Source: Thioploca sp. (lineage in GTDB: Bacteria > Pseudomonadota > Gammaproteobacteria > Beggiatoales > Beggiatoaceae). Taken from it: 39,246 nucleotides of DNA. The number at the start of each line of letters is the position of its first letter. Position 1 is the stretch's first letter. This document shows positions 69-17,175 of the stretch, piece after piece. The stretch spans positions 1-39,246 of the forward strand of contig JAAUSR010000049.1 in assembly GCA_012032555.1 (NCBI GenBank), given 5' to 3'. The translations under genes and the position numbers were made by a program. A model generated the notes under the pieces. It saw nothing but the letters and a program-made list of their open reading frames with translations. It was not told the origin of the DNA and did no database searches.

Positions 69-515
69 TTATATTCTCCTTTTAGCAAAATAGCATTTTA
101 AATTTCGTGATACAACTCTATTATATTCAAGTTTACTATTTAGATATGGCCATAGATCATAGTGATGTGGATTTTGCCCGGTTTTTTTAATCTTGCCAGA
201 ATTTGAGTCGAGTTTCACTTGAGCTAAGCCAAAAAATGAGTTTCTTTGTATAGCTTTTTTTTTCAATGGATGTTGAAACAATCCTCTTGAACGTGTTATT
301 CCTTCTTTTGACAGCATTGACATCGCAAAAGCTCCGCAATCACCTTTCCTCTTTCTGTCATCTAGATAATGTTTGTTTTCTGGCTCATACACCCAAATTA
401 CAAAATCGTCTGGTATTGGAGGATTATTAAACACAAAACGAAAAAAATTTCCATTTGGTGAAACTGCGTCTTTCGGAGGACATTTCTTAGGCGTTTCGGG
501 GTGAAATGTTGTCAT
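69..515 (-). CDS. small hypothetical protein, 148 aa
   Basis: No family is recognised. The open frame extends upstream to 665, but I place the start at the internal ATG 515-513. It has a good ribosome binding site (TTAAGGAAAAT, about 6 nt upstream), and the upstream extension runs through a copy of a palindromic repeat that is unlikely to be coding. The protein begins MTTFHPETPKKCPP, is rich in Lys/Arg, Pro and aromatic residues (net basic), and has no signal peptide or membrane segment. Segments such as GDCGAFAMSML in the middle and HHYDLWPYL near the C-terminus look like a compact globular domain. A second gene starts 35 nt downstream in the same direction, so this may be the first gene of a small two-gene cassette, for example effector plus partner. 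That pairing is inference only. Confidence 0.55.
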   Translation of the reverse strand: MTTFHPETPKKCPPKDAVSPNGNFFRFVFNNPPIPDDFVIWVYEPENKHYLDDRKRKGDCGAFAMSMLSKEGITRSRGLFQHPLKKKAIQRNSFFGLAQVKLDSNSGKIKKTGQNPHHYDLWPYLNSKLEYNRVVSRNLKCYFAKRRI

Positions 516-538
516 TGGTATTTTCCTTAATCTAAAGT

Positions 539-769
539 ACGTAGCACGTAGGCTAGGTTGAGGAACGAAACCCAGCTTCTCAAACTTACGCAGTTTAAAT
601 GAACAATTTAATAATTCCAACAAGTTAGTATTTTGCAGTGCAAAAGAGCTATTGAATAAAATCAATTAGCAAGAGTAGGCTGGGTTAAGAAACCCAGCTA
701 ACCATTGGTTATCTAATGGTGTTGGTCTTAAATAAGCTGGGTTTCGTTCCTCAATCCAACTATGTGCTA
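539..769. repeat. inverted pair of GTAGG-type palindromic repeats plus a hairpin
   Basis: Positions 539-577 hold a repeat containing GTTGAGGAACGAAACCCAGC. A near-identical copy lies in reverse orientation at 734-769. Between them, 679-698 is a perfect small hairpin (GCTGGGTT / AACCCAGC around a 4-nt loop). Related elements recur at 12986-13084 and 19150-19210 (ACGTAGCACGTAGG, GAGGAACGAA). This is a dispersed short repeat family of the genome. The left copy overlaps the rejected upstream extension of the small gene at 69-515, so that gene's leader may be transcribed through it. Confidence 0.7.
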
Positions 770-813: not shown

Positions 814-3414
814 TTACATATCAGCACTAATAACCTCATAGTACCTTCCAAACCAGTAAGCGATGAGAAAATCTATTCCCGACTGTCCCGAATATCCCCA
901 GATTCTAAACTTATTGAAAGGATTATCTTTCCAATAATAACTGGAGGTGGTTGACTCAAACAAAGGATATGCCCTTAAACTCTGCAATCGCTCGGCCGAA
1001 TCTGATTTTTTATATTTCCAGAGCAGTTCTGGGTATGGAGAAACCGTAAATTTGGGGTTGATCATCCAATCGATTAGAAATTGCTCTCTTTGTGTAGGTA
1101 TTTCTCGCAATCTCCAAATGGCTTGATCGACCCAGTCACTGTGATTAGGCTGATGTCTTAAGGTGCCAGACATCAGTTTAAAAAGTCCCATACGGTGAGA
1201 TAGCATTTTTTCGTCTATATCGGTGAAGACGCCTTTATAATGAAGTACTTCTGCTGAGTTATTACCGGCAGCATCTATAAATCCTTGATAGTTATTATAT
1301 AATCCCCATATACTCAGATGATTTCCGGACCAATCACTGACGATACCACCAATATTCATGAAAGTGAGATCAGACAGTTGTGAATACTTATTGATACTGT
1401 CATAACAGACTTTGATGTCATCATTCCAATCCAGTATCGGTTTATATTGTGGAAAATCTTTGATGATATTGTAAAGCACCAAGTTCATTTGCAGGGTATT
1501 AGGCCATTTGGTGGCTTCCCATAACTGCAACGGCCGGCACTTATTCAGAAATAGAGCATCATGTTGGCTCCTTAAATCTACCAGCGCATTAATCATGCGG
1601 ATTTTTAGATCCCCATATTTTGACATAACGGTATCATATTCAGTGCTAGAAAGTGTTTTTAGTGCTTTATAGCCCCATAACATCCCAATAAAGATGCCTC
1701 GCGCCATGTCATTATTGCCACCGCGCTTATACTCGACGTTGGTAACCGGCGCGTATTTCATCGTTCCACGGCGCCATTCCGGATCGTGATCAGATTGGCC
1801 GCTATCGATCATGATGGTTCGGGCAAATGTCGCTTCCAAATTGTCATTCGGGTTATCTCTTACAATTTCAATAGTATTGACAATACCATTCAATGATTTA
1901 AGCAAGTATTCAAGCGCAGTCGGATCTGTTGTCAACAGATATTTCTTCGCCATCGCAGCGACATAAACCCCAGTCCATAATAAGGCATCTCCGTCATGAA
2001 CGTAGCGATTTTCAGCTTCGTCCCATCTGGATACCATGCCTAACTCATTAATCTGCATGGTTTGCACCGCTTCAGCAAGAAAGGCTTCTTTTTCATGAAG
2101 CTTCCAGCGGTAGGCACGATTGCGCAACAAAGTTTCCGCTAGGCTAATCGGATCAATGATTTTCTGGATGACTCTTAATCTTTGTTGGTTTGCCGGTTGT
2201 TGATAATATTCAAAGTCGGTGGGATCAAAAACCCAGAAATGAATTTTCTGCTTAAATTCGTCCCGGTCAATGTAGGGTGCTACCTCGGGCAAAGTATTGT
2301 AATAAGATTCATCATATTCCGAAACAGACAAAATTGTATCCAACGCATCGGAATAAGGATTATCAGTTGTTGGAATATCCTGTCTCAAATTACGCCATAT
2401 CAGTTGATTCCCATTATCGGTGCTCCGATGCCAAGTTTCATAAAAGCGATAAGTTATCGAATTATAGGTAGCTGAATAAACACCGTCGTATTTTTCATCT
2501 CCTGATGGGATCAGCGTTTCTGTTACCGGTAGCGGCATATTATGGTGAAAGTCACTATCTCTGACCAATCCATCGGCCTCTTTGATAAACCCCACCCTAT
2601 CTAGATCAAAAAACATGGAAACGGTGCTATCTTCATTAAGCGTCGCATTCCCTTCAAGCGCGGATGAAACATGAAAAGATTTATAGGTATAGGCGTTATA
2701 ATCAAGCAACTTTATCAATTGGTATGAGCCGTCGTGGTTAGCTCTTAACTCGGCAGTTCCGGTATACTCGCCAATATAATCTGTTCCGGATATGGAATAG
2801 ATACCGACTACTGGAGAAATCACGGTCAAGCTGTCTAGCATGGCATCGGCAAGCCAATTTCTTATACCTACTGAACCGCTCGCCTGTTCAGAATCATTAA
2901 CCGCTATTTTAAGTTCGTTATTCAAATAAATCTTAATGTTATCACCAACCGCTGCAACTTTAAGATCATACCAAGTCTCATAATTTATCGGGCTATTCGT
3001 ACTCGTTATAAAGGTCCAGTCGTTATTCATTTTGCCAAGACCAACCAAATTGTTACTGGGTTCGATGTAGGCATAATAGCCCTTAAAACTATCTACGCCT
3101 ACCGCCGGGTTAGAAACGCGAAAAATGACACCGACATTGCCGCTGCCAGAATTGATTTTGAGACGGGCTTCATAGATAAAATCAGTAAAAGTCATTGAAC
3201 TGACCGCCTTATAACCTTGACCATTGGGAATAATGACAGCACCATCACTTAATCCCCAAGTACCGCCATAAGCGCTCCAATCGTTTACCACACCATTATC
3301 AAAATCTTCATGAATTGATTTTGAGAAACTAGCATTTGCAAATAAAAGAGAGCTTAATAAGATTAAAAAAACAATATGGAATTTAGTTTTAGCAGAAAAG
3401 TTTAATAGTTGCAT
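814..3414 (-). CDS. secreted protein with LamG-like domain and helical toroid-like region, 866 aa
   Basis: The start is set at ATG 3414-3412, because AAGGAGG sits 8 nt upstream and the protein then begins with a textbook Sec signal peptide (charged start, hydrophobic core around residues 13-26, then ANASFS). Residues about 33-200 (FDNGVVNDWSAYGG..., GVIFRVS, YYAYIEP, WYDLKVAAVGDNIKIYLNNE) have the pattern of concanavalin-A/LamG-like domains of the 3-keto-disaccharide hydrolase type, usually carbohydrate binding. A beta-rich linker follows to about 300. Residues about 400-860 are helical and Trp/Tyr-rich (RAYRWKLHEKEAFLAEAV, DALLWTGVYVAAMAKKYLL) and resemble an (alpha/alpha) toroid such as those in polysaccharide-active enzymes. 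Catalytic residues are not assignable. Likely exported and acting on or binding an extracellular glycan; the exact activity is unknown. It appears monocistronic. Confidence 0.75.
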   Translation of the reverse strand: MQLLNFSAKTKFHIVFLILLSSLLFANASFSKSIHEDFDNGVVNDWSAYGGTWGLSDGAVIIPNGQGYKAVSSMTFTDFIYEARLKINSGSGNVGVIFRVSNPAVGVDSFKGYYAYIEPSNNLVGLGKMNNDWTFITSTNSPINYETWYDLKVAAVGDNIKIYLNNELKIAVNDSEQASGSVGIRNWLADAMLDSLTVISPVVGIYSISGTDYIGEYTGTAELRANHDGSYQLIKLLDYNAYTYKSFHVSSALEGNATLNEDSTVSMFFDLDRVGFIKEADGLVRDSDFHHNMPLPVTETLIPSGDEKYDGVYSATYNSITYRFYETWHRSTDNGNQLIWRNLRQDIPTTDNPYSDALDTILSVSEYDESYYNTLPEVAPYIDRDEFKQKIHFWVFDPTDFEYYQQPANQQRLRVIQKIIDPISLAETLLRNRAYRWKLHEKEAFLAEAVQTMQINELGMVSRWDEAENRYVHDGDALLWTGVYVAAMAKKYLLTTDPTALEYLLKSLNGIVNTIEIVRDNPNDNLEATFARTIMIDSGQSDHDPEWRRGTMKYAPVTNVEYKRGGNNDMARGIFIGMLWGYKALKTLSSTEYDTVMSKYGDLKIRMINALVDLRSQHDALFLNKCRPLQLWEATKWPNTLQMNLVLYNIIKDFPQYKPILDWNDDIKVCYDSINKYSQLSDLTFMNIGGIVSDWSGNHLSIWGLYNNYQGFIDAAGNNSAEVLHYKGVFTDIDEKMLSHRMGLFKLMSGTLRHQPNHSDWVDQAIWRLREIPTQREQFLIDWMINPKFTVSPYPELLWKYKKSDSAERLQSLRAYPLFESTTSSYYWKDNPFNKFRIWGYSGQSGIDFLIAYWFGRYYEVISADM

Positions 3415-3725
3415 TAAGAAAACCTCCTTAAATGATGCAAAACACCAGTCATGGTATGACTTTCCACGCAAAGCATCACTGCTATTAAGTTAAGGTTTTA
3501 GTCCTCACTAAAGCTGGGACTGTTTTAAAGTATAAAAAAATTTATATTTTAATATTTTAATATTAAATTAAATCTCTTATAAAGTTAGCAAATTAAACCC
3601 AATATTACGTAAAATAATGTGATATCCAACTTTTACCTGATTAGTCCATCAAAATGAAGGTCATGACGTTCCAACAAATAAGGAGTATAGCCTGTGCAAC
3701 TGCTCCTAAACGCTATTCTCCCTAA
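3415..3725. other. AT-rich intergenic region upstream of the secreted protein gene
   Basis: No gene is seen. On the minus strand a TATACT box near 3530 could be the -10 element for the secreted protein gene, but no convincing -35 accompanies it. The 18-mer CACTGCTATTAAGTTAAG at 3476-3493 is shared with the arm of the fold-back element at 32851-32998, so a fragment of that repeat family sits just upstream of the gene. Confidence 0.4.
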
Positions 3726-3935: not shown

Positions 3936-6482
3936 TCATGAACTTAAATCTTTATCGCAACCAAATTTCCACCCTGTCTCCTCTAACGCTATTGCATCCT
4001 TTAGAATTTTAAACGGAAACGGCAACACGGGATAACCTTCCTTTCTCACAAAATCTACATTTAATAACGGAAAGAATTTATCCGGATTAAATTGGCCATC
4101 CAATAGGATAATATCACGTACCAAATTACTTCTCACTTGTGCCCGGTTACCTTTCAAAGCCTGACAGCCTCCCACCATGTACTTCATGGTTTTTTCGTCA
4201 AACCAGATGCCTTTGCCATAATCCATACCGTTAATTGGGGTTCTTAAATCAGTTCCAATGGCATTGGACAAGCGATCATTGAAATCTGACTTCTTGCTGG
4301 TATTTTTACTAATACCAAGGTGTTGATAACCGTTATATCCCCCTTTGGCAGAATCCTTAGTCAACTTCTCGAAACTGACTAGATCTTCCACATCTTTCTT
4401 TTTGGAAAGATTATCAACAACCGCATTCCATTTTTTGAAAATCTCTTGCCAACTTGAAGGTATTTGGTCAAAATTCTCGACCTTGAACTCGTCAAGCGAG
4501 CGACCTCGTTGACGTTGTTCGAGTCGGTTTAAAACTACCGTGGTGTTAAATAATGCCCGGCAATTATCTCCCTGAGAAATTTCGAGTAAGTATTCCCTTG
4601 AGATCATCACGTAACTATTTTCATGTAGTTCTTTTGCGTGTTCTTTATCCAGTTTCTGAACATTCCAAGTATGATAACGTTCCATTTGACTGAGAATATC
4701 TTGATAGTTCCGTCCCGTCAGTTGTTTCAAATCTTCCTTAAAGGTAGGGTTAGAAACTTCCTGAAAAAATAGACAGTTCTCTTTGCAATACAGAACTTTG
4801 CGTTTGTAAATGAAAAATACGCCTTCTAGAAGGGATAAATTTTGAGAAAATTGATTAGGCAAGCGTGACTGAATTTCTCGCGGGTGATACAACAGATCAA
4901 GAATGTGCAAGTTGTAAAGTGAGACCCACAAACGGGTTTCTAATTGTTTGTTGGTGGGCAACTTATAATTTAAATATTTCGATTTACTCATTTGCAGTGG
5001 CATTGCCTCTGAGTCAGAATCGTCAATATCAGAGTCATCTCGTGGAATTTGGCCATCAGGATCTTTTTCTGAGTCACTTTCCAAAGCAGTGTTATCTTCG
5101 GTATTGATATTCAGATGTTTAATAACGACACCTTGTTTTTTATAGAGAAGATCATTTTGATAAGGGTCTGGCAATCCTGCCAATGGATTGCCTTTCTCAA
5201 AAGCCGTTTTACTGTAATCGATGAGAATCAAAAATCGTTCGTTAGGCAAAGGATTTTTTAATACTTCTCGTTCTTTGACCTCGATAGAAATTTTCGCTTC
5301 CGTCAAAATTTTTTGAATAGCCGTTACCATTGTATTAAAACATTGCTGTTGATTATTTCTACCACCCTCTTCTTGCCAAAGACCATTAATGAGCGTGATA
5401 GGATACTTAGATAAGGGGAAGCTAGCCTTTTTTTGTAAAGTGACTTTTTTAACCTCAATGCGCGTCAATTCCGTCGGTAATCCCATTTTCGTGAGGTGTT
5501 GAGCTAATTTCTGATAAGTGGATAGCAGAACGTGACAACGAGATTGTTTGAGTTTATCCGGTTGAGTGGGATCAAAAAAATTAATCTGCTTTTTCTTTTG
5601 AGGCGGTAATGAACCTTTTTCTATCTCATCGGTTTGACTGGTTTGAAGCGTTGCTGAATTATCTTCTTTAGATTTTTTGCGAGCAGGACGGTTTTCACCT
5701 TGCAATCGATAGATAGCATACTGAGATAAATTATCTACATCTCTGGGAATAAGCGGTACAAAGGCTTTTCCGCCACTGGCTAATTTGTAATACGCTTTCC
5801 AAGCTAGGTTTTCTTTAGTAATCGGGCTGGTTTTATAAACCAGATACATTTGCCGCAACCTATCCGGCATGAGAAATTCCAAGGTATCTTGCTTACCACC
5901 ATTGCTTTCCGCAAGTTGGCGGTCACGTTTCCAATTGTGACGAGGATAGACCCCTAATACCGGCCGACCTTCAGATTTTCTTTTGCCTTCTTCTTCAACC
6001 GGGTAGTTGTACACTCGACCGGTAGGAAAGTACATGGGTCCCTGTCCAACAAAGGACATATCTATTTCGTCTTTCACACAATACGTCTTACCAGCCAGCC
6101 GAAACAGATCGGCAATGTCGCTATTGTCGTTCAAGTTAGGCAAAAACTCTACTGCTTGATACCTTTCACCTTCAAAATCCTCAATTTCAAAGGGTGGCTT
6201 GTCAATAGGCAAACAGATATAGACGCGTCGACGAGATTTATTGAACTCGAAGGCATATTGTGAACCATCTGCCATAATAGTCTGCTGGCGTAAACTACTG
6301 TACATCCTTTGATAGCGTACCGCGTCAGGAATTACTGGTGAATAAATCCTTGATTCACTCAAGTCATAGATATAAATACAGAAGTATTGACGTAACCTCT
6401 CATAATCAATCTTACTCCGCTGCACGGTCAAAGAAGAGGTGTTGATGGTAAATTGATTGGATTGTTTGGTCTTACTGGGCAT
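3936..6482 (-). CDS. unknown 848-aa protein with a possible MID/PIWI-like middle; partner of helicase-nuclease
   Basis: The start at 6482 has AGGAG 6 nt upstream and overlaps the last 11 nt of the helicase gene, so translation is probably coupled. No family is recognised with confidence. The N-terminal 300 residues are basic and mixed alpha/beta (PMYFPTGRVYNYP, MPDRLRQMYLVYKTSP). Residues about 312-459 include a predicted Rossmann-type run (FLILIDYSKTAF at 417-428, then DPYQNDLLYKKQGVVIKHL at 439-457) that resembles the MID-to-PIWI transition of prokaryotic Argonaute/pPIWI-RE proteins. An acidic, Ser/Asp-rich linker (466-493) interrupts it. The C-terminal 350 residues have no clear DEDX tetrad, so a PIWI fold, if real, would be catalytically inactive. 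Length and operon partner (helicase plus restriction-type nuclease) fit the pPIWI-RE type of island, but the match is weak and structural comparison could overturn it. Confidence 0.55.
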   Translation of the reverse strand: MPSKTKQSNQFTINTSSLTVQRSKIDYERLRQYFCIYIYDLSESRIYSPVIPDAVRYQRMYSSLRQQTIMADGSQYAFEFNKSRRRVYICLPIDKPPFEIEDFEGERYQAVEFLPNLNDNSDIADLFRLAGKTYCVKDEIDMSFVGQGPMYFPTGRVYNYPVEEEGKRKSEGRPVLGVYPRHNWKRDRQLAESNGGKQDTLEFLMPDRLRQMYLVYKTSPITKENLAWKAYYKLASGGKAFVPLIPRDVDNLSQYAIYRLQGENRPARKKSKEDNSATLQTSQTDEIEKGSLPPQKKKQINFFDPTQPDKLKQSRCHVLLSTYQKLAQHLTKMGLPTELTRIEVKKVTLQKKASFPLSKYPITLINGLWQEEGGRNNQQQCFNTMVTAIQKILTEAKISIEVKEREVLKNPLPNERFLILIDYSKTAFEKGNPLAGLPDPYQNDLLYKKQGVVIKHLNINTEDNTALESDSEKDPDGQIPRDDSDIDDSDSEAMPLQMSKSKYLNYKLPTNKQLETRLWVSLYNLHILDLLYHPREIQSRLPNQFSQNLSLLEGVFFIYKRKVLYCKENCLFFQEVSNPTFKEDLKQLTGRNYQDILSQMERYHTWNVQKLDKEHAKELHENSYVMISREYLLEISQGDNCRALFNTTVVLNRLEQRQRGRSLDEFKVENFDQIPSSWQEIFKKWNAVVDNLSKKKDVEDLVSFEKLTKDSAKGGYNGYQHLGISKNTSKKSDFNDRLSNAIGTDLRTPINGMDYGKGIWFDEKTMKYMVGGCQALKGNRAQVRSNLVRDIILLDGQFNPDKFFPLLNVDFVRKEGYPVLPFPFKILKDAIALEETGWKFGCDKDLSS

Positions 6483-9400
6483 GTTTATCTCCTTCAGTGA
6501 TCTTGTTGTTTTCGGTTAGCTGAGCTAATTCTTGCCAGACATCATTCAAGAACATGTCAAATATTTCATGGTGCCGGTTCTTATTTTGCCGACTTAATGC
6601 ACCTGCCAAGTAAACGAAGGAAGCTTCTTCCCAGGTATTGACCTTTCTTGAACAGTCTTCATTGCGATAGTAGGTTCGTTGTGTATAACCTTTGCCTTCG
6701 CTAAACAACAAGTTAATATACACCACCTTCGCATTTCTTACACCGGTGACACGCTGGATAGCTAACAGAGTATCATGCCCTTTCTTGACATAGTGTTCAT
6801 GGGTCAATTTGCGACTTATTGCCTCATCGTCAATATTCTCAAAATTCTTAATGACACGATCATCCCAATGTTTGGCATCTACATAAATTGGCAAGCCTTT
6901 AATTTTAAAATCCACTAATTCAAACAATTCATGCGGAATCTTATCATTAGCTTCTATTTCAATACCTGCCTGCTTTAGTAAAGCTTTTAAAGCTTCTTCT
7001 CCAATAGCACCTTGTAAAACCGCTCTTTGGAATTCCGGAAGGAACACCAGATTATCTTCCTGATAACTGAAATCGAATCGTTCCTTAAATCCCTTTAAGG
7101 CAAAATAATTCCTGACGACCACATTGTCACGTACCACTTCATAAACCTTGTTGGGTTGATAAATTTCAACGCCAGCCTGCCATTCGGGGAGAAAATGTTC
7201 TTCACCAGATTCACGACGAATGAAGATTTGTGCTTCTCCCTCGGGATTGGAGGAAATATGAGTCGTGGTAAATACACAAATTTCTCCCATCTTAAAGTCA
7301 AATTCAAAGCGTTCCTGAGCTGACCAATGCCAATGAAAATCTCCTTTCAAAGCCGCTTCGCGCATTCCTTCCCACAACCTCCGTAAAGACCAAGCCGCAT
7401 TTTCCGTCAGTTGACCTTGGCGTAATTGGTTAAATTCTACCTCCACCAGTTTTTTCATCCAATCTTCATACTGGGTAGTCATTTTCCCAAGTGATTCATA
7501 TTCCGTTTCGTTACGATAATGCTTCTCTTTGGCAGTGTTATGAATATCCTGGATAATTGCTTTTAATAGAGGTGATAAACGGGATTGCCGCTTTTCAAAC
7601 AAGATTTCGCTTAAGACAGCACCACTGTTATTATCTGGCATAGCCGTTCGTTCAATAATTCGCAGTATTTCTTCTGGTAAAGTTACTTCCGCTGGTTTGG
7701 CTTGTTCTCTTGTACGTTCAATACGTCCAATTTCCTGAGTCAGGAGGGTGATCATGTATTTACGGTAATCTTCCGTTTTTTTATAGACTTTATTGAGGTG
7801 ATCAAAATCCAATTCAGAATCACCTCCAATAAACTTTTTTAAATCATAGAAACCAATCACCTGATTGACTTTCAGTTTGCTGGCTTTATACAATGATTTT
7901 TCCTTGTTTCTAACCTCTTGCGAAGTTTCCCTATGTCGGTACTGAATATCACGGTCATCATCATAATTGCTGGCAAAAAAGTAATAGAGGGGATGAGACA
8001 TGTAGAAACTTTCAAAATCTCGTTCCACTATTTCCGTGGTGCCATCTGCTCGCGTTACTTTCAATTCGTATTGGAGGTTAACGCCATTAGAAGCGGAAGC
8101 ATGTTGTGTTATCACCATGACTTTACGTTGTTCTTCCAATCCCCGTTGGAAGATACTGTTATAAAACACCTTCTTGTCGTCGTAAATATTACCCCAGGCT
8201 TCTGCATTAGCAAAAATGATATAGGCACTGTTCGGCTGAGAGGAGGGACGATTGATGGTAAACAAGAAAACAGTATTAATTTTGGATTCCTCTGTGGTCT
8301 CCTCTGGCTTAATCAGTTCAACCGCGAAGGCTTCAGTCGGTCCGCGTCGCAAACAAGTCCGAAAGGCCGCAAATCCCGACGGTGCTGGTTCCTCGGAATC
8401 TGGTGTGGCCGTCATATATTTAAATATTTTCAGAGTATTACTAAATGTATCAGTGAAAATCAAATGAGTGTCATTATGACTTTCTTCGATAATCCAACGA
8501 AACGCTTCAAAATGAAAAGAGACACGTTGTAGGCGACGGTCTTTCTTGCCTTCAGACACCATGTTACTACCATACAAATTCACTCCATTACCACGTAATT
8601 CTTGCAAACCATTTAAAATTCGTTCAGACCAATCCTCATCGTTTTTATCCAACTCACGCGCCCTACGGACTGACCCATGCAGTTGAGTTTGTCGCGTCTT
8701 CTCCTTGACTGCCAACATGTCGGCAATGATAGAATCGTACTGATGTCGACTACCAGCATCGGGAATGCAGATACGTTGACGTTTTTCTTCTGGTTGAGAC
8801 TGACGAAATACGGATAAAGCGGTCCTTATCCAAGGCAAACTGAAGTGAGCATACTGCTGTGAAATATCCGAGGTAGCACTGATGCCAAAGACTAAATTAT
8901 TCGCAGCTAGCACAAATAAACGGGCTTCAGGAGTCATTTTCAGCGAGTAATGGTTAACCTCCAGGCGATTTTCAGAGTCAGCACTGTGTCGGTCGATAAT
9001 TTGGTTGTAGGTATACCCTCTAGTGAAAAAACTATCATCGCACCGTAAGCGTTTTAACAGAGGAAATACCTTAAGGATTTGGAAAGTATTAGGGTGTTGT
9101 AAATGCTTCCTAATTTTGACTACATCACCACGTGATAAAGTGTAGGTCGTAATGGACCTAGCGTTCATAATGATCTGACTATTTTTTAGTGGAGACAGTA
9201 CCACACTGTTTTCCCAGGCGAGGAGGTAAATAGTCCATTGCGATGGTAAGGATGTCAGGTTAGGTAAGGTTAACGTTGCTGAAGATTCACCTCGATAAAT
9301 CAATAGACTATCCTGCCAATTAGCTAATAAGGGTTGTTCTTCTGACAAAGCAAGATGTTTAAGCGCAACAGGTAAATCTAGGTCAGCAATCAATTGCTCT

Positions 9401-10758
9401 GGGGTTTCATACTCTTTTCGGAAATAGTGATTTTCCACCTCGTGCAAGATTTTTCTTAAAAATTCCGAAGCGCCGGGTCGAAATGCCGGACTATTTTGAT
9501 CAATGAATTTGTGGTATTCAGTGATTTGTTCGTCGTTTTTGATATCATAGATCAGGGTAAGCAGCCGGCGATAAGCGGCTTCATCCACCTTTTTACTATT
9601 TTTCAAATTAGCAAAGAAGTTAAAAATCTTGATTTCAAACTCTCGAATGGGTTGATAAAACTCCAAAAAAGAGGCATGGTTATCTTCCTTGGTGAAAACG
9701 AATTCCCCTTCGTAAGGATTCTTGAAATTATCCCGCAGATAGTACATCTCCGAAGAAATGGTATAACCACTATCAAAAATATATCCGAAGGGTTCGTCTT
9801 CTTGTTCGGTTCTTTTAAACAATTTATCAGCATTAGAAAATTTATAGTTATCCGTTTTGCCTCTAGGAAATTGTAATCCCATTTCAGACAGAGCTTGACC
9901 AAACGCTGCGGCAATTTCTAAGCCTTTTCGAGTCGCGTTCGATTCTCCAGCCTTGCCTTGATAATATTCACAAAAGTGCGACACAAAAATTTCCGGGCGC
10001 AGATTTTTCTTATCCTCTACTAAATGATCTAAAAAAGCATCCACTTGACGGTCAAATTCGTCTATAAAAATGTAGTAGCCTGATAATTCATAAACCGATT
10101 GGTGGCTTTCGCCATTAAACATGGGATAGCCCAATCTTTGGGTGGTACCAATAAGTAATACGTTGGCAGTATCTTGAGTAAAGGCGAGAAATGGAAAAAG
10201 TTCTTGCAGCAACGGAGAATTGAGAATGGCTTTCCTTGATGACGATTCGTCGTGAAGACCTTTGACACGTTTACTGACCGCTTCTCTACAAGCCCGCAGA
10301 ATTTCATTACAATGTTCATTCACATCCTTATAATGCCAAGGCATTTTTAAAAGTCGTTGGACTTCAACCAACCGTTCGCGGAGACTTTGTTCAGTATGAA
10401 AACGCATTGCCCCGAATAAACCTAATTCACCTATCTCAGTCAGTAATCGATTAAACCGCTTCTCTTGAACAATTTTGATAATAATTTCGTGATTAGCTCG
10501 GTAATAGACATGCTTGATGCCGGCTTGTTCACAGGCATTGGCGACTTCTTTAACGATGTTTTTTCTATCCGTCATAAAAATCGCTTGCCGTTTGGCTTTG
10601 GCAATTTCATTGAGAATAAAACATCCTTCATTATTGAAATCTTTATACAAGGCACTGGTCTTACCGTTACCCGTGGGACCAAGGATTTCTGCTAACCCTA
10701 CCTCGTACTTTTTAAATAGGTCAAAGTAAATATCGTTATAAGTTGGTTGTTTGGACAT
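6472..10758 (-). CDS. SF2-type helicase fused to a C-terminal PD-(D/E)XK nuclease, 1428 aa
   Basis: Helicase motifs are readable in order: Walker A GPTGNGKT (27-34), Walker B/DExD box FIDEFD (231-236), motif III GISATSD (625-631), a motif V-like QHASASNGVNLQ (885-896) and motif VI QEIGRIERTR (1008-1017). About 390 residues separate the DEFD box from SAT, so this is a large, divergent helicase rather than a standard RecQ or Hsd type. Near the C-terminus GEEALKALLKQ (1253-1263) and ELVDFKIKGLPIYVDAKHW (1280-1298) give the E...D-x(10)-DAK pattern of a PD-(D/E)XK restriction-type nuclease, with D1283, D1294 and K1296 as likely metal and catalytic residues. It is the first gene of an operon with the 848-aa protein, overlapping it by 11 nt. 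The ribosome binding site is weak. Probable role: ATP-driven DNA (or R-loop) unwinding and cleavage in defence against foreign DNA. No Fe-S cysteine cluster is evident. Confidence 0.8.
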   Translation of the reverse strand: MSKQPTYNDIYFDLFKKYEVGLAEILGPTGNGKTSALYKDFNNEGCFILNEIAKAKRQAIFMTDRKNIVKEVANACEQAGIKHVYYRANHEIIIKIVQEKRFNRLLTEIGELGLFGAMRFHTEQSLRERLVEVQRLLKMPWHYKDVNEHCNEILRACREAVSKRVKGLHDESSSRKAILNSPLLQELFPFLAFTQDTANVLLIGTTQRLGYPMFNGESHQSVYELSGYYIFIDEFDRQVDAFLDHLVEDKKNLRPEIFVSHFCEYYQGKAGESNATRKGLEIAAAFGQALSEMGLQFPRGKTDNYKFSNADKLFKRTEQEDEPFGYIFDSGYTISSEMYYLRDNFKNPYEGEFVFTKEDNHASFLEFYQPIREFEIKIFNFFANLKNSKKVDEAAYRRLLTLIYDIKNDEQITEYHKFIDQNSPAFRPGASEFLRKILHEVENHYFRKEYETPEQLIADLDLPVALKHLALSEEQPLLANWQDSLLIYRGESSATLTLPNLTSLPSQWTIYLLAWENSVVLSPLKNSQIIMNARSITTYTLSRGDVVKIRKHLQHPNTFQILKVFPLLKRLRCDDSFFTRGYTYNQIIDRHSADSENRLEVNHYSLKMTPEARLFVLAANNLVFGISATSDISQQYAHFSLPWIRTALSVFRQSQPEEKRQRICIPDAGSRHQYDSIIADMLAVKEKTRQTQLHGSVRRARELDKNDEDWSERILNGLQELRGNGVNLYGSNMVSEGKKDRRLQRVSFHFEAFRWIIEESHNDTHLIFTDTFSNTLKIFKYMTATPDSEEPAPSGFAAFRTCLRRGPTEAFAVELIKPEETTEESKINTVFLFTINRPSSQPNSAYIIFANAEAWGNIYDDKKVFYNSIFQRGLEEQRKVMVITQHASASNGVNLQYELKVTRADGTTEIVERDFESFYMSHPLYYFFASNYDDDRDIQYRHRETSQEVRNKEKSLYKASKLKVNQVIGFYDLKKFIGGDSELDFDHLNKVYKKTEDYRKYMITLLTQEIGRIERTREQAKPAEVTLPEEILRIIERTAMPDNNSGAVLSEILFEKRQSRLSPLLKAIIQDIHNTAKEKHYRNETEYESLGKMTTQYEDWMKKLVEVEFNQLRQGQLTENAAWSLRRLWEGMREAALKGDFHWHWSAQERFEFDFKMGEICVFTTTHISSNPEGEAQIFIRRESGEEHFLPEWQAGVEIYQPNKVYEVVRDNVVVRNYFALKGFKERFDFSYQEDNLVFLPEFQRAVLQGAIGEEALKALLKQAGIEIEANDKIPHELFELVDFKIKGLPIYVDAKHWDDRVIKNFENIDDEAISRKLTHEHYVKKGHDTLLAIQRVTGVRNAKVVYINLLFSEGKGYTQRTYYRNEDCSRKVNTWEEASFVYLAGALSRQNKNRHHEIFDMFLNDVWQELAQLTENNKITEGDKHAQ

Positions 10759-11588
<830 letters not shown>

Positions 11589-11673
11589 GAAATGTTGACA
11601 ACGAATGACCCGTAACAAAATAGCTAGCTAACATAAACCTAGCAAAACCAAACAGATATTACAGGAAAATCGA

Positions 11674-12975
11674 ATGAGTTATTTCGGACCAAAAGCTATT
11701 AATACCTTGTTATTTTTATTATTAATGAATATATGGCCACAATCGGTCTTAGCCGCTGAACTCAGTGTCGGTGACACGGCATGGTTGCTAACCGCTACCG
11801 CATTAGTGCTATTTATGACCATACCTGGCTTAGCTTTATTTTACGGCGGTCTAGTACGAAGCAAGAATGTACTCTCGGTGCTCATGCAATGTTTTGCTAT
11901 TACTTGTATAGTATCTATTCTATGGGTATTTTATGGTTATAGTTTAGCCTTTGGTGATGGCGGTGCCATGAATGCTTGGATTGGCGGATCTGATCGTATA
12001 CTTCTTAATAATATGGGGCGCGACAGCTTAGTTGGTAGTATTCCAGAAACCGTATTTAGCATGTTCCAAATGACTTTCGCTATTATTACTCCAGCCCTCA
12101 TTGCCGGTAGTTTTGCCGAACGGATGAAATTCTCCACCATGCTATGCTTTTCAGCTATCTGGTTGACAGTCGTTTACCTGCCAATTTGCCATTGGGTATG
12201 GGGCGGTGGCTGGCTTGCTAAGATGGGTCTACTTGATTTCGCTGGTGGTACAGTCGTGCATATCAATGCTGGCGTGGCCGCACTAATCGCAGCATTGGTG
12301 ATGGGGAAGCGGAAAGGTTTTCCAGGAACTGCCATGCCCCCTCATAACCTAACTATGACCGTGGCTGGCGCCGCTATGTTATGGGTAGGCTGGTTCGGCT
12401 TCAATGCGGGCAGTGCGTTAGCTGCAAATGGCAATGCTGGCATGGCTATGCTGGTGACTCACATTGGCGCGGCTTCCGGGGCGCTCGCGTGGATGATGAT
12501 GGAATGGTTACGGCATGGCAAGCCCAGCGTGCTTGGTATTGTCACGGGTATGGTAGCGGGACTCGGCACGATCACCCCAGCCTCCGGCTATGCCGGTCCA
12601 ATTGGTGCCCTGATTATCGGTTCTAGCGCTGGACTAATATGTTACTACTCCACTGCCTATGTCAAAGGTGTGCTACATATTGATGATTCCCTTGATGTAT
12701 TCCCGGTACATGGGGTGGGTGGAATCCTTGGCACCCTCATGACCGGTGTCTTTGTCGCCATACTCGGGGGATCAGGATTAGCGGCAGGTATGACAATTGG
12801 AGGCCAAGTCGCTGTACAATTCATCGGAGTTATAGCAACTTTTGCATGGTGTGCTATCGCGACTTGGATCATCTTGAAAGTCCTAGATGCAACCTTAGGT
12901 TTACGGGTCACCTCCGAGCAAGAGGTGGAAGGTCTGGACACCGTATTGCACGATGAAACGGGTTATAACCTGTAA
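11674..12975 (+). CDS. amtB: ammonium transporter AmtB
   Basis: An inner-membrane trimeric channel that carries ammonium/ammonia into the cell, regulated by the adjacent GlnK. The 433-aa protein starts with a cleavable signal-like segment (LFLLLMNIWPQSVLAAE) followed by about eleven hydrophobic helices. The twin pore histidines are in VVHINAG (H196) and PVHGVGG (H346), and the conserved Asp before the pore is D188. The FYGGLVRSKN segment and the FNAGSALAANG segment are typical of the Amt/Mep/Rh family. AGGAAA is 7 nt before the ATG. Gene order and spacing indicate co-transcription with glnK. A palindromic repeat starts 10 nt after the stop. Confidence 0.96.
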   Translation: MSYFGPKAINTLLFLLLMNIWPQSVLAAELSVGDTAWLLTATALVLFMTIPGLALFYGGLVRSKNVLSVLMQCFAITCIVSILWVFYGYSLAFGDGGAMNAWIGGSDRILLNNMGRDSLVGSIPETVFSMFQMTFAIITPALIAGSFAERMKFSTMLCFSAIWLTVVYLPICHWVWGGGWLAKMGLLDFAGGTVVHINAGVAALIAALVMGKRKGFPGTAMPPHNLTMTVAGAAMLWVGWFGFNAGSALAANGNAGMAMLVTHIGAASGALAWMMMEWLRHGKPSVLGIVTGMVAGLGTITPASGYAGPIGALIIGSSAGLICYYSTAYVKGVLHIDDSLDVFPVHGVGGILGTLMTGVFVAILGGSGLAAGMTIGGQVAVQFIGVIATFAWCAIATWIILKVLDATLGLRVTSEQEVEGLDTVLHDETGYNL

Positions 12976-12985
12976 AAATAATTTA

Positions 12986-13084
12986 ACGTAGCACGTAGGT
13001 TGGACTGACGAAGGAAGTCCAACAACCTATTAACAGAACTATAAATAAATGTTGGCGTTCGCAAGAGCACTCCAACCTACGCGT
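12986..13084. repeat. GTAGG-type palindromic repeat after amtB
   Basis: ACGTAGCACGTAGGTTGGA at 12986-13004 is matched at the far end by an inverted TCCAACCTACGCGT at 13071-13084. Inner small hairpins (GTTGGACT..AGTCCAAC) lie within. It is the same family as the copies at 539-769. It may act as a bidirectional terminator between amtB and the convergent CHAT gene, as no separate terminator is visible. Confidence 0.65.
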
Positions 13085-13094
13085 CTAAACGTAA

Positions 13095-13119
13095 GGGACG
13101 GGGTTGCAAACCCCGTCCC
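13095..13119. repeat. perfect 25-nt hairpin, left copy flanking the CHAT operon
   Basis: GGGACGGGGTT / AACCCCGTCCC form an 11-bp perfect stem with a GCA loop, followed by GCGAG. An identical 25-nt hairpin, also followed by GCGAG, lies at 18051-18075, on the other side of the two-gene CHAT operon. Confidence 0.85.
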
Positions 13120-13167
13120 GCGAGTAGGTAAATCCGGTTATCTATTCCTTAATCCGTTAAATCCGGT

Positions 13168-16100
13168 TTAACCTAGCGTAACTTTATTTTTAAGGCGTTC
13201 AAGGATGAAATAAATAATCGTAGAAAATTCCAAGTTTTTTTTACACAAATTATCCAAATCCCTTTCTCCATCAAATATTTTTTGGAAAATAGTGATTAAT
13301 TTCTCAGGAAGTTCATTCTTTTTCATTAAATGCAAGACCGTTTTTTGTTGTTTAGGTTTTGCAACATAATCTATTACTGTAGTAATTAATCCATTAAATT
13401 TCTGTAATTCGTATTGAGTTCTAAATGAATTAGCTTTTGCTTCTATTGCAAGGTAACGATAACATTTTGCTTGTACCGGCTGATTTTGTTGTTCGGCAAT
13501 TTTTGCCAATAGCATGTAGGTACCCCAAAGTTGCGCTAAACTTGGATCAATCTTCTTTTTTTTAAGAGCCAAAGCTTCTTCTGCTAGTTGCTGTGCTTCT
13601 TCCAAACTTTGAAAGTTATTTTTCAAGCACTCGGCAAGATTATTGAGTATATTTGAAATGAGCAAGTAATTCTCACTGTTTATAGCTTGAGAATAAGCAA
13701 GAGCCTTTTGATACCATGCTTTAGCCTCTTCAAATTTTCCAGTAGCATGAAGAACTGTTCCTAAACTGTTCCATGTTTCTACTATAGTTGTATTTTCTAA
13801 TTGCTCTTGAATTAATGCAGCTTTACGATATGCTTCTTCTGCATCATTTAAGTTACCTTGTTTTTGGTATACAAGACCAAGCTGATACCAAGCGGTGGCT
13901 TCCATTTCTGGTTCATTTAACCGTTGTGCAGTACTTAATGTATCATCATGGTATGATTGGGCTTCTTGCAACTTACCTTCTAAAAATGCTAGAGAACCTA
14001 GTTGACCTTTTATAACAGTTATTTGACGGATATCATTTTGTTCTTTTGCAATATCCAAGGCAGTATTATAGATGGTATATGAGTGTTTATAATCACCTTT
14101 TTTCATTAATACATTTGCTAAATTGGCTTGTAATATACCAGTTTGTCGTCTAACGCTTCGCGAAGTCTTTAGTTGTTCTACGATAAGTAATCCATCTCGA
14201 TAACTTTTCTCTGCTTGAATCAATTGTCCTTGTTTCTCAAGACAATTTCCTAAGTGAGTTAAAACAGCACTATGTTCATAACTAGATTTTTTTACCTTTC
14301 TTAATAAATGATGAAATAACTGTTCTGCTTGCTGATACCTTTCTTGATTGAGTAATTGTTTTGCTTGGCTGATATCAACTAAATAAAAGGCATCAAAATC
14401 CTTTTTTCCTTTTGTTCTTTTAATAAGTTGAGTCAGTACGGTTTTCTCACGACTAAGTCCAAAAATATCAAGAAATCTACTAACATTATTTCCAAACTCC
14501 ACTGCCCATACTATTCCTACCGCTAACACTTCATAAGCAGCATAAAGTAAATTAGGTAGTTCCCATCGAAGTATGGCACGAGTTTCAGCAGGATTTTTGG
14601 TATCATCAGATTCTAGTTGATTAGATAATTGATAATAATACTGTTGATAGCGAACAGTTAATTTTGCTTTATCTGTAGATGATAGTTTTAATCGTAAAAA
14701 ATACGCCAGATTAGGATGAAATTGAATATAAGTTTGACCAGCTATATCTTTAACTTGAATTAAACCAATAGATGCTAATTGCCAACGCAATGTTGACCAT
14801 GTCAATTCATTAACTCCTTGCGCCAACCCAGGTTCTGGGAAACCGGAAAATTTTTCAATTAAAAATTTGAACTTCCTATCTTCTTTCACTTCTCTACAAA
14901 GAGAATTTATAAATGCTTGTGATAACGATTCCATTTTTAAACCAAAACTTTCAATGACTTCTTGGGGATTATCACTCTGCTTTGCTTGTATAGATTTCCT
15001 TATCTCTTTTATAGAAGAGGATTCTTCAAATTTTCTTAGTTCGGTCACACCCAGCAGTATATTTTCCATCGCCCCACCCTGAAACATCCCCAACCTCGGT
15101 AACAATCGCCGCGATTCCTCATCCAACTGCTCAATCACTAATTGCAAGGTTGCCTCAACTGGATTGTTAGGCAATTCCAGCATTAACTGGTTTAAACGAG
15201 TTTCTAAACTTGCTAAATCCTCAGTTTCTAAAGAATGCGCCAACCAACTAATCGATAATGGATGAAACTGTACTTTAGCAAACCAATGCAACAACTCATC
15301 AGTTTGTAAACGCACCGACTTATTTAATAATACCAATAACCGTTCAAAATAATGTAAGGCATCTTCTTTATTCAAACCTGCTAATACCAATCGCCGAAAA
15401 TCGGCATTTTCATCACGTACTGGATAAGCTTCATGTTCTAATACCAGTGGACGGGTTGTTATCAAAACGCGAGTTTTACCCAATAGTGACCATTGCTGAG
15501 CAATCGTTAATAATTCCTGCAAAGTATCTTTTTTCTCAGTAGCATACCCTTCTAAATTATCTAAAATTAATAATATACGCTGATTCTGCAACACGACATC
15601 TGCTGCTGCCACATCTATTAAACTTTGTCCAATCACTGAACCCAAGGTTGTCACCGCCCATTGCACTGCATCCAATCCTTGATAACCGGAATAATCCACA
15701 AATACTACTGCATCAAACATGGCTTTTTGTAATAACCAACGCCCCAGTTTTTGAGCTAAGAATGTTTTGCCTTGCCCACTAAAGCCACTTACCACGACAC
15801 GCCGTACTCCGTCGACAAACCAATTTTCAATTTGCCATAACTTTTTACGTCGCCCCCAAAAACCTACCTCTGATAATTGAGATAAATTATGCTGATGAGA
15901 TTTTGGGGATGTTGGTGTCATTCTTGAAGTAAGAAGCGGTGTGTCTTCACCGGCTTGATACAAAGTGGGCAAAAACCAATCACTGACTTGAATTTCAACA
16001 CGCTCTTGTCCACGTTGCAAATCACGGCGTTTTTTATCTTGGAATAATGCTTGGCGCGCCTTATCTAAAGCCATTCCAACACTGTTACCTTGGGCAATTT

Positions 16101-17175
16101 CCCGATAAAATTCGCCAAACAGCAGTTCTGTTACTCGTACCATCACTGAATAACTCATAGCTAAAACTGACGGTACACTGGTTGTTACCAAACCCACGGC
16201 GGTACTCCCGATAGGATCTTCGTCAGTTTCATCATTGTCATGCCTCACCATGGCTGACTGACAAGCCGATAATACTATCAAACGTACCTTAGACTCTGAC
16301 AATAAATAGGCTAACCAAGAAGTTGGGACATAAAATTGGTCTCTACCATTTTTTCCATATTTGCTCGCTTGTTCAAATAACAAATAACCAGTATTTGCGC
16401 CAATTCTTAAATTACGCAATTTCTTACGCAAATCTCGAGGAAAATGCCCACCTAATTGTTTTGATAGGTTACCTTTTTCACTTAATTTGCCGGTTTTATC
16501 AAAAATACCATGCCCATCAAAATGAATCACATCAACACGCTGCAACCCAGAATTTTGCAAACGTTGCCATAAATTTTCCAACGTGGCTGGTTGTAAAAAT
16601 TCCACCGTGATAGCAGAATAATTTTCAATAGCTTTTAATACTGCTTGGGCGTCGGTGCGTGGATCAATAAAACTAACACCTTGCGGACGACTGATAACAA
16701 ACAAGATATGTAAATGCGATTGAGGCACATAAGCTGGAAACTGAGTTTGAAGTAGTGGAATCCGCCGTAGAATCGTAATCGAAGGCTGAAATGCAAATAA
16801 AAATTGCCCAGCATTATGTAATAATTCCCACGGTAAAGATAAAATTTCAGGTTGTTGGGCGGTAATCGTAACTAGATATTTATCACTGGATGTATTGATA
16901 AATTGAGTAAATAACTGTTTTGCTGAAGTATTATTAAATATCGCATCAAATAGTGCTTGTCCCCATCGCGGTAATTGCGCGGTAACTCGCTTGGCTTCTT
17001 GATCATCAATATCCATCACATACTGCGTGGCATAGACTTCTAAATAATGCCGGATCGCCTCTTTATCTTGGGCAGTGAGTGGTATAGTAAAATCGACATT
17101 CACCGGGGGATATTGAGCGAAGCGAATGGTGACTTGCTGAGAATTCTGGAAAGATAAATTAAGTTCTGAAATCAT
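13168..17175 (-). CDS. CHAT protease - STAND NTPase - TPR protein, 1335 aa
   Basis: An N-terminal adaptor region (1-145) precedes a CHAT caspase-like domain (about 150-400). The likely catalytic dyad is H222 in IHFDGHG and C305 in VLSACQS. A STAND/NB-ARC-type NTPase follows, with Walker A GFSGQGKT (464-471), Walker B ILLILDN (534-540) and an arginine-containing LITTRPL. The C-terminal third is a run of TPR units (repeated A..Y..AL pattern: EAEEAYRKAALIQEQL, EAKAWYQKALAYSQ), a sensor-type superhelix. Proteins of this layout are cytoplasmic signalling proteases that are activated on ligand sensing, several in antiphage immunity. The ATG at 17175 lies 28 nt beyond a perfect AGGAGG, while an in-frame CTG at 17196 is spaced 7 nt from it, so translation may start there. 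Co-transcribed with the upstream small membrane protein gene (43-nt gap). Confidence 0.9.
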   Translation of the reverse strand: MISELNLSFQNSQQVTIRFAQYPPVNVDFTIPLTAQDKEAIRHYLEVYATQYVMDIDDQEAKRVTAQLPRWGQALFDAIFNNTSAKQLFTQFINTSSDKYLVTITAQQPEILSLPWELLHNAGQFLFAFQPSITILRRIPLLQTQFPAYVPQSHLHILFVISRPQGVSFIDPRTDAQAVLKAIENYSAITVEFLQPATLENLWQRLQNSGLQRVDVIHFDGHGIFDKTGKLSEKGNLSKQLGGHFPRDLRKKLRNLRIGANTGYLLFEQASKYGKNGRDQFYVPTSWLAYLLSESKVRLIVLSACQSAMVRHDNDETDEDPIGSTAVGLVTTSVPSVLAMSYSVMVRVTELLFGEFYREIAQGNSVGMALDKARQALFQDKKRRDLQRGQERVEIQVSDWFLPTLYQAGEDTPLLTSRMTPTSPKSHQHNLSQLSEVGFWGRRKKLWQIENWFVDGVRRVVVSGFSGQGKTFLAQKLGRWLLQKAMFDAVVFVDYSGYQGLDAVQWAVTTLGSVIGQSLIDVAAADVVLQNQRILLILDNLEGYATEKKDTLQELLTIAQQWSLLGKTRVLITTRPLVLEHEAYPVRDENADFRRLVLAGLNKEDALHYFERLLVLLNKSVRLQTDELLHWFAKVQFHPLSISWLAHSLETEDLASLETRLNQLMLELPNNPVEATLQLVIEQLDEESRRLLPRLGMFQGGAMENILLGVTELRKFEESSSIKEIRKSIQAKQSDNPQEVIESFGLKMESLSQAFINSLCREVKEDRKFKFLIEKFSGFPEPGLAQGVNELTWSTLRWQLASIGLIQVKDIAGQTYIQFHPNLAYFLRLKLSSTDKAKLTVRYQQYYYQLSNQLESDDTKNPAETRAILRWELPNLLYAAYEVLAVGIVWAVEFGNNVSRFLDIFGLSREKTVLTQLIKRTKGKKDFDAFYLVDISQAKQLLNQERYQQAEQLFHHLLRKVKKSSYEHSAVLTHLGNCLEKQGQLIQAEKSYRDGLLIVEQLKTSRSVRRQTGILQANLANVLMKKGDYKHSYTIYNTALDIAKEQNDIRQITVIKGQLGSLAFLEGKLQEAQSYHDDTLSTAQRLNEPEMEATAWYQLGLVYQKQGNLNDAEEAYRKAALIQEQLENTTIVETWNSLGTVLHATGKFEEAKAWYQKALAYSQAINSENYLLISNILNNLAECLKNNFQSLEEAQQLAEEALALKKKKIDPSLAQLWGTYMLLAKIAEQQNQPVQAKCYRYLAIEAKANSFRTQYELQKFNGLITTVIDYVAKPKQQKTVLHLMKKNELPEKLITIFQKIFDGERDLDNLCKKNLEFSTIIYFILERLKNKVTLG

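Follow-up and report, generated by a model that had tools for sequence, protein, structure and literature searches.

A probable divergent DdmDE system with an altered guide-end pocket in the DNA of Thioploca sp.

DdmDE and ApsAB are among the few systems that act on plasmids. In the DdmDE model, as laid out in the accessible part of PMC12409362, a guided, inactive Argonaute finds the plasmid and recruits a helicase-nuclease, which moves along the displaced strand and cuts. For ApsAB, a helicase-nuclease with the Argonaute-like ApsB from Escherichia coli ST38, antiplasmid activity is reported with no effect on eight phages, and a 28/25% identical ApsAB-like system of E. coli was tested as well (accessible part of PMC11096173). 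Here we compare with these systems a two-gene operon found in a 39,246-nucleotide stretch of DNA from Thioploca sp., the whole of which is referred to as the window. The two genes are best explained as a divergent DdmDE system, that is, a guided inactive Argonaute and a helicase-nuclease directed against plasmids above all, a reading to which we assign a probability of about 0.86. A preliminary description of this DNA had allowed for something new, and this holds for the lineage and for its altered guide-end pocket, but not for the kind of system, which is already known.

The operon and its surroundings

The first gene of the operon (6472..10758, minus strand, ATG start) encodes a DdmD-like helicase-nuclease of 1428 aa, and the second (3936..6482, minus strand, ATG start) a DdmE-like Argonaute-type partner of 848 aa, with an overlap of 11 nt (6472..6482, minus strand). 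Both this arrangement and the nuclease residues named in the preliminary description translate as reported there. All the motifs of the helicase are read from the minus strand, and their conservation was assessed in an alignment of 16 helicases spanning the range from the window protein to DdmD. Specifically, T29, G30, G32 and K33 of motif I (TGNGKT, residues 29-34, 10657..10674), D233 and E234 of motif II (DEFD, residues 233-236, 10051..10062), A628 and T629 of the SAT motif (residues 627-629, 8872..8880) and Q1008, G1011, R1012 and R1015 of motif VI (QEIGRIER, residues 1008-1015, 7714..7737) are invariant in the 16 members. The same is true of the PD-(D/E)XK nuclease core (residues 1250-1298, 6865..7011, minus strand), of the form G1250xxGE1254...E1280, D1283...D1294-A-K1296-x-W, in which G1250, G1253, E1254, E1280, D1283, D1294 and K1296 do not vary; in translation the window protein reads G1250-A-I-G-E1254 and D1294-A-K1296-H-W. 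The nuclease is fused to the helicase and paired with a protein of the Argonaute/PIWI type, in all likelihood as a defence operon, in line with the preliminary description. The absence of a DEDX tetrad from the partner, also remarked upon there, agrees with an alignment of 10 members in which no acidic column is conserved across the first PIWI strands; to judge from its sequence, the PIWI domain appears to be catalytically inactive, as in DdmE.

The operon is present in one copy in its own genome. At 0.396 and 0.404, the two genes have a GC content close to that of the window (0.411), and GC therefore gives no sign of recent transfer. Promoter and terminator scans returned no excess over shuffled sequences (20 vs 20.5; 7 vs 6.5). 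As for the surroundings, a gap of 491 nt (10759-11249), which carries the short direct repeat TTTTCGAGCCAA, separates the pair from the divergent glnK-amtB genes for a P-II protein and an ammonium transporter. Farther along, a 1335-aa protein with CHAT, NACHT and TPR domains is encoded at 13168-17175 on the minus strand, a domain make-up often linked to bacterial immunity. At the edge of the window, a 198-aa open reading frame (69-665, minus strand) with no Pfam family matches the PADLOC model PD-T4-10_A (E 4e-11).

Kinship with DdmD and DdmE

In general, annotation models recognize neither protein. The partner has no Pfam family at E<=1 and no match to any PADLOC model, and the helicase has four Pfam families at E 0.03-0.37, all below their own cut-offs, and one weak PADLOC match (RmrA, E 0.037). 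NCBIfam gave one match per protein, far below cut-off (E 0.13 and 0.1), so that the 'unknown family' of the preliminary description is an apt label at this level. The PADLOC models of DdmD and DdmE likewise leave both window proteins unmatched at E<=1, which reflects annotation models built on near relatives rather than a property of the system. Comparison of single sequences also barely reveals the kinship with DdmDE: by BLASTP the window partner reaches Vibrio DdmE at E 0.019, and the helicase matches DdmD at 4e-9, in short pieces only.

A search of the PDB with a helicase profile of 5 rows (A2) retrieved five distinct sequences at E<=1, all of them DdmD (2.4e-22 to 2.7e-22), with matches spanning motor domain 2 through to the nuclease. 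The corresponding partner profile (A1) retrieved four sequences at E<=1, all DdmE, from L. casei at 3.4e-6 and from V. cholerae at 0.37-0.39, and the Vibrio DdmE open reading frames were missed by it at E<=1. When whole lineages were aligned by hhalign, the helicases (A8) matched the DdmD set (A7) at E 3.3e-40 over 1084 columns, and the partners (A9) matched the DdmE set (A6) at E 1.7e-8 with a probability of 95.4 over 613 columns, nearly the full length; it is near the C terminus of the partner, in a conserved block (residues 762-823, 4014..4199, minus strand), that the sequence match to DdmE is best. Controls run with the same program on five column-shuffled and one reversed A6 profile gave E 0.16-0.63, and two crossed pairs gave 0.57 and 0.74. 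The reference for both sets is L051, a full-length Vibrio-type pair retrieved in the genome search at the level of the order (PADLOC DdmD 2736 bits, DdmE 1579 bits) and the sole row scored against PADLOC; L050 and L054 closely resemble it, and L053, L055 and L056 were assigned by position and alignment.

The predicted fold of the partner points in the same direction. The model of the window partner itself is poor (pLDDT 57.9, pTM 0.53). Foldseek placed Argonautes first (Ago2, 4.4e-5) with DdmE absent among the best 50 matches listed, although a family missing from a Foldseek or VIA list is thereby not disproved; VIA-align gave DdmE the ranks 1-5 (Z 8.7-7.7), a score that taken alone is a weak indication, near the level reached by unrelated models. 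Since DdmE was missing from the Foldseek list, a homologue (L024) was folded instead, whose partner is 19% identical to that of the window and yields a better model (pLDDT 78.1, pTM 0.75). With this model, DdmE occupies ranks 1-6 in Foldseek (9.5e-22 to 1.1e-12), followed by Argonautes, and ranks 1-6 in VIA-align (Z 16.4-11.6, 521-634 residues aligned), where Argonautes follow at Z 9.0 and below. The structural comparison envisaged in the preliminary description thus leads to a predicted DdmE fold, clearly for the homologue and weakly for the window protein.

In a tree of 24 helicases, rooted at the midpoint only and containing several long branches, the window protein forms one branch with those of L012 and L013 (support 100/100), all from Thiotrichaceae. 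This branch is part of a larger lineage (16 rows, support 100/98) that is separate from a DdmD-type group (7 rows, 99/98). The same gene pair also occurs in two deeper lineages, L032 (1097 and 729 aa) and L052 (1262 and 779 aa), neither of which belongs to the window lineage or to Vibrio DdmDE, and their grouping with each other may be a false join.

The farthest helicase in the tree is that of L061, an ApsAB-like proxy, the sole yield of searches for ApsAB itself, that stands in for the true ApsAB sequences. L061 was taken as such because its motif layout (GFGKS 213, DEEH 498, SAT 785, QAIGRVER 1095, DTKNW 1382; partner Y396xxxK...QG) resembles that of ApsA and ApsB in the accessible part of PMC11096173. 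It bears on whether the window pair is an ApsAB system proper, which would share the architecture and the reported antiplasmid activity, and indeed the L061 helicase matches both DdmD and the window lineage helicases (E 2.2e-9 against A8). Against this, the window helicase is much closer to DdmD than to L061 and, with its 1428 aa, has no N-terminal extension of the sort that places motif I at 218 in ApsA. The L061 partner matches neither the window partner lineage nor DdmE; specifically, the window partner lineage scores a probability of 1 and E 0.054 against the ApsB-like proxy, compared with 1.7e-8 against DdmE. An ApsAB system proper is consequently a very unlikely description of the pair.

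Inheritance, distribution and the guide-end pocket

The two genes are inherited together. When genome contigs were scanned with the helicase profile as sole query, 20 loci were found, and in 20/20 the partner lies directly downstream of the helicase on the same strand, a coupling that exceeds chance and that answers the survey of homologues proposed in the preliminary description. Within these 20 loci, the contig ends inside the partner gene in L014 and L021, the helicase of L022 is split and its partner short, and the partners of L019 and L031 are identical.

The pair is rare and patchy, as expected of a mobile defence system. Among 40 kin genomes, 25 of the same family and the window's own included, the partner is present in two, the window's own and G017, whose partner is identical to that of a Ca. 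Thiomargarita nelsonii contig (L013); a third copy comes from a Thiotrichaceae metagenome-assembled genome (L012). The identity of the G017 and L013 partners places the window in the family to which Thiomargarita belongs, and its host is probably a large sulfur bacterium. The helicase profile was positive in 3/369 genomes of the class, own included, and in 13/394 genomes of the order of G370, and a wider profile (A5) in 2/392 genomes of the family of L026. Among complete E. coli genomes, 25/5,426 carry at least 80% of a pair of the L026 type, in all 25 places on the chromosome, and in all 15 of the places listed both genes are annotated as 'hypothetical protein'. This lineage thus goes unlabelled in the E. 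coli records listed, and the PADLOC models overlook it.

Mobile elements recur around the relatives. Near relatives of the pair are also carried by an SXT/R391-like element; a TraI_2 relaxase gene lies two genes downstream of the pair in L004; a phage integrase adjoins it in L048; and in L033 a gene for a TnsA-like endonuclease is divergent beside it (7292-8164; 8554-14982), so that this pair may be cargo of a Tn7-like element. The helicase matches 144 plasmid records, 140 of them from Salmonella, none over more than 80% of the query. Among the four records of this list that were examined closely, both genes are present on plasmids of Citrobacter (L003) and Salmonella (L005). On a Salmonella Infantis plasmid (L011, 5661-9551) the helicase is broken into three open reading frames followed by an IS630 transposase at the place of the partner, which was not found in that record; the same short helicase match recurs in many other plasmid records from Salmonella. 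Plasmid records searched with the partner alone and phage records searched with the helicase gave no match, and of 117 pattern matches in viral contigs none was confirmed by tblastn. A literature search found no paper describing the Thiotrichaceae copies, which is not proof of absence.

What sets the Thiotrichaceae branch apart is the pocket for the end of the guide. In long Argonautes the 5' phosphate of the guide is bound by Y, K, Q and K (accessible part of PMC6299218), and by analogy the equivalent residues would contact the guide in DdmE. A signature D-x-Y...Q...KELxIK is common to DdmE and the window lineage, with Q376, K400, E401, I404 and K405 invariant in six aligned DdmE proteins, L053 included. 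DdmE itself is said to be without the ApsB form of the pocket motif, as far as the accessible part of PMC11096173 goes. In the window partner, the end of the MID domain (residues 439-455, 5118..5168, minus strand) reads D439-P-Y441...K455 and aligns with D361-P-Y363...Q376 of Vibrio DdmE. This stretch lies within residues 417-457, where the preliminary description had placed a transition from MID to PIWI, an assignment that fits. Here D-P-Y441 is kept and K455 replaces the Q of the other members. In the first PIWI helix (residues 519-531, 4890..4928, minus strand), Y523-N-L-H-I-L528 replaces their KELxIK. The hhalign pairing puts Y441 on Y363, Y523 on K400 and L528 on K405 of DdmE; K455 adjoins the H456/S377 pair and therefore falls on Q376.

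A pattern search over 31 distinct partners indicates how confined the change is. The MID motif was found in 27, with Q in 24 and K in 3, the latter being the window, L012 and L013 only. KELxxK occurs in 26/31, the exceptions being the same three, L032 (no match) and L053 (pattern match elsewhere). Throughout the Thiotrichaceae branch (3/3), in either sub-branch, KELxIK has become YNLHIL or SGLHIR, with R in place of the last K in L012 and L013, a mild change. A third lost position, four residues after the tyrosine, was considered and rejected: it is variable in the family as a whole (of 27 proteins, 10 have K, 4 have R and 13 another residue), and for this reason only the Q and KELxIK are counted as changed.

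As the guide-end pocket is rewritten in this branch, the type of guide or its anchoring may differ. A tentative possibility, to which we give clearly less than even odds, is that the large sulfur bacteria possess a DdmE with changed guide holding, using guides with a 5'-hydroxyl, other guides or guides anchored elsewhere, and hence a new specificity. A pocket rewritten in a single branch offers a natural experiment on guide retention by an inactive Argonaute.

The same replacements, shared by the whole branch, could be read as decay of the pocket in a pair derived from DdmDE that has given up guided defence, or has taken on a guide-independent role, for example as a helicase-nuclease triggered by DNA ends or structures. 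The Ca. Thiomargarita nelsonii copy could be taken in the same sense, since it is broken: compared with L012, about 0.7 kb is missing at about 3300-3440, so that the helicase lacks its nuclease end and the partner its beginning, and one TGA interrupts an upstream piece, damage that may be decay or an assembly fault. Nevertheless, the window and L012 copies are intact from end to end and have lost none of the motor and nuclease residues, dN/dS between L012 and L013 is 0.20 and 0.25, and the tyrosine of the pocket is retained throughout the branch, which makes a loss of guided defence highly improbable.

Proposed mechanism and comparison with known systems

The reading as a divergent DdmDE system draws on the observed gene pair with its domain make-up and intact motifs, on homology to DdmD and DdmE and on coupled inheritance. 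By analogy with DdmDE, the partner, as an inactive long Argonaute, would carry a short nucleic-acid guide that pairs with invading DNA, plasmids above all. Once bound to guide and target, it would recruit the DdmD-like protein, which would be loaded on the displaced strand and translocate by means of its SF2 motor, while the PD-(D/E)XK domain would degrade the target DNA. Plasmids are taken as the likeliest target because of the ApsAB work (accessible part of PMC11096173), and the window pair would thus be expected to eliminate them.

The preliminary description had instead linked the operon to pPIWI-RE, an RNA-dependent restriction system with a DinG helicase and a restriction endonuclease, which has in common with it a PIWI-type protein, an SF2 helicase and a nuclease of the restriction-endonuclease fold in one operon (accessible part of PMC3702460). 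A two-gene form of pPIWI-RE is nonetheless scarcely credible: neither window protein matched its Pfam models at E<=1; of the four cysteines that separate motif I from motif II (46, 76, 150 and 157), C150 alone is matched by Cys in each of the nine aligned rows, so that no DinG-type cluster is conserved; and both the sequence profiles and the predicted fold point to DdmD and DdmE. Moreover, pPIWI-RE differs in having three genes in the strict order REase, DinG, PIWI-RE, with a DinG-type helicase and another PIWI family, compared with two genes and a fused nuclease here (accessible part of PMC3702460).

ApsAB has the same architecture and a reported antiplasmid role, but the motif Y[X]3K[X]nQG[X]nK of ApsB, as given in the accessible part of PMC11096173, is not kept in the window partner. 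An unnamed sister lineage (L004, L005, L015-L031, L026), found on SXT/R391-like integrative and conjugative elements, enterobacterial plasmids and islands, resembles the window pair in gene order, profiles and motifs, with identities of 17-20% for the partner and 21-25% for the helicase; unlike the window pair, it keeps the Q and KELxIK of the pocket. Finally, the DdmDE of Vibrio cholerae and Lactobacillus casei is alike in having two genes, a helicase-nuclease followed by an Argonaute-like partner, with an SF2 motor, a C-terminal PD-(D/E)XK domain and the DdmE fold, no conserved PIWI catalytic acid being found. The window pair differs from it in its larger size (1428 and 848 aa vs 1190 and 687), in very low sequence identity, in its separate lineage in the tree, in the changed residues of the pocket and in its flank, as a gene for a WYL regulator stands beside Vibrio ddmDE and none beside the window pair.
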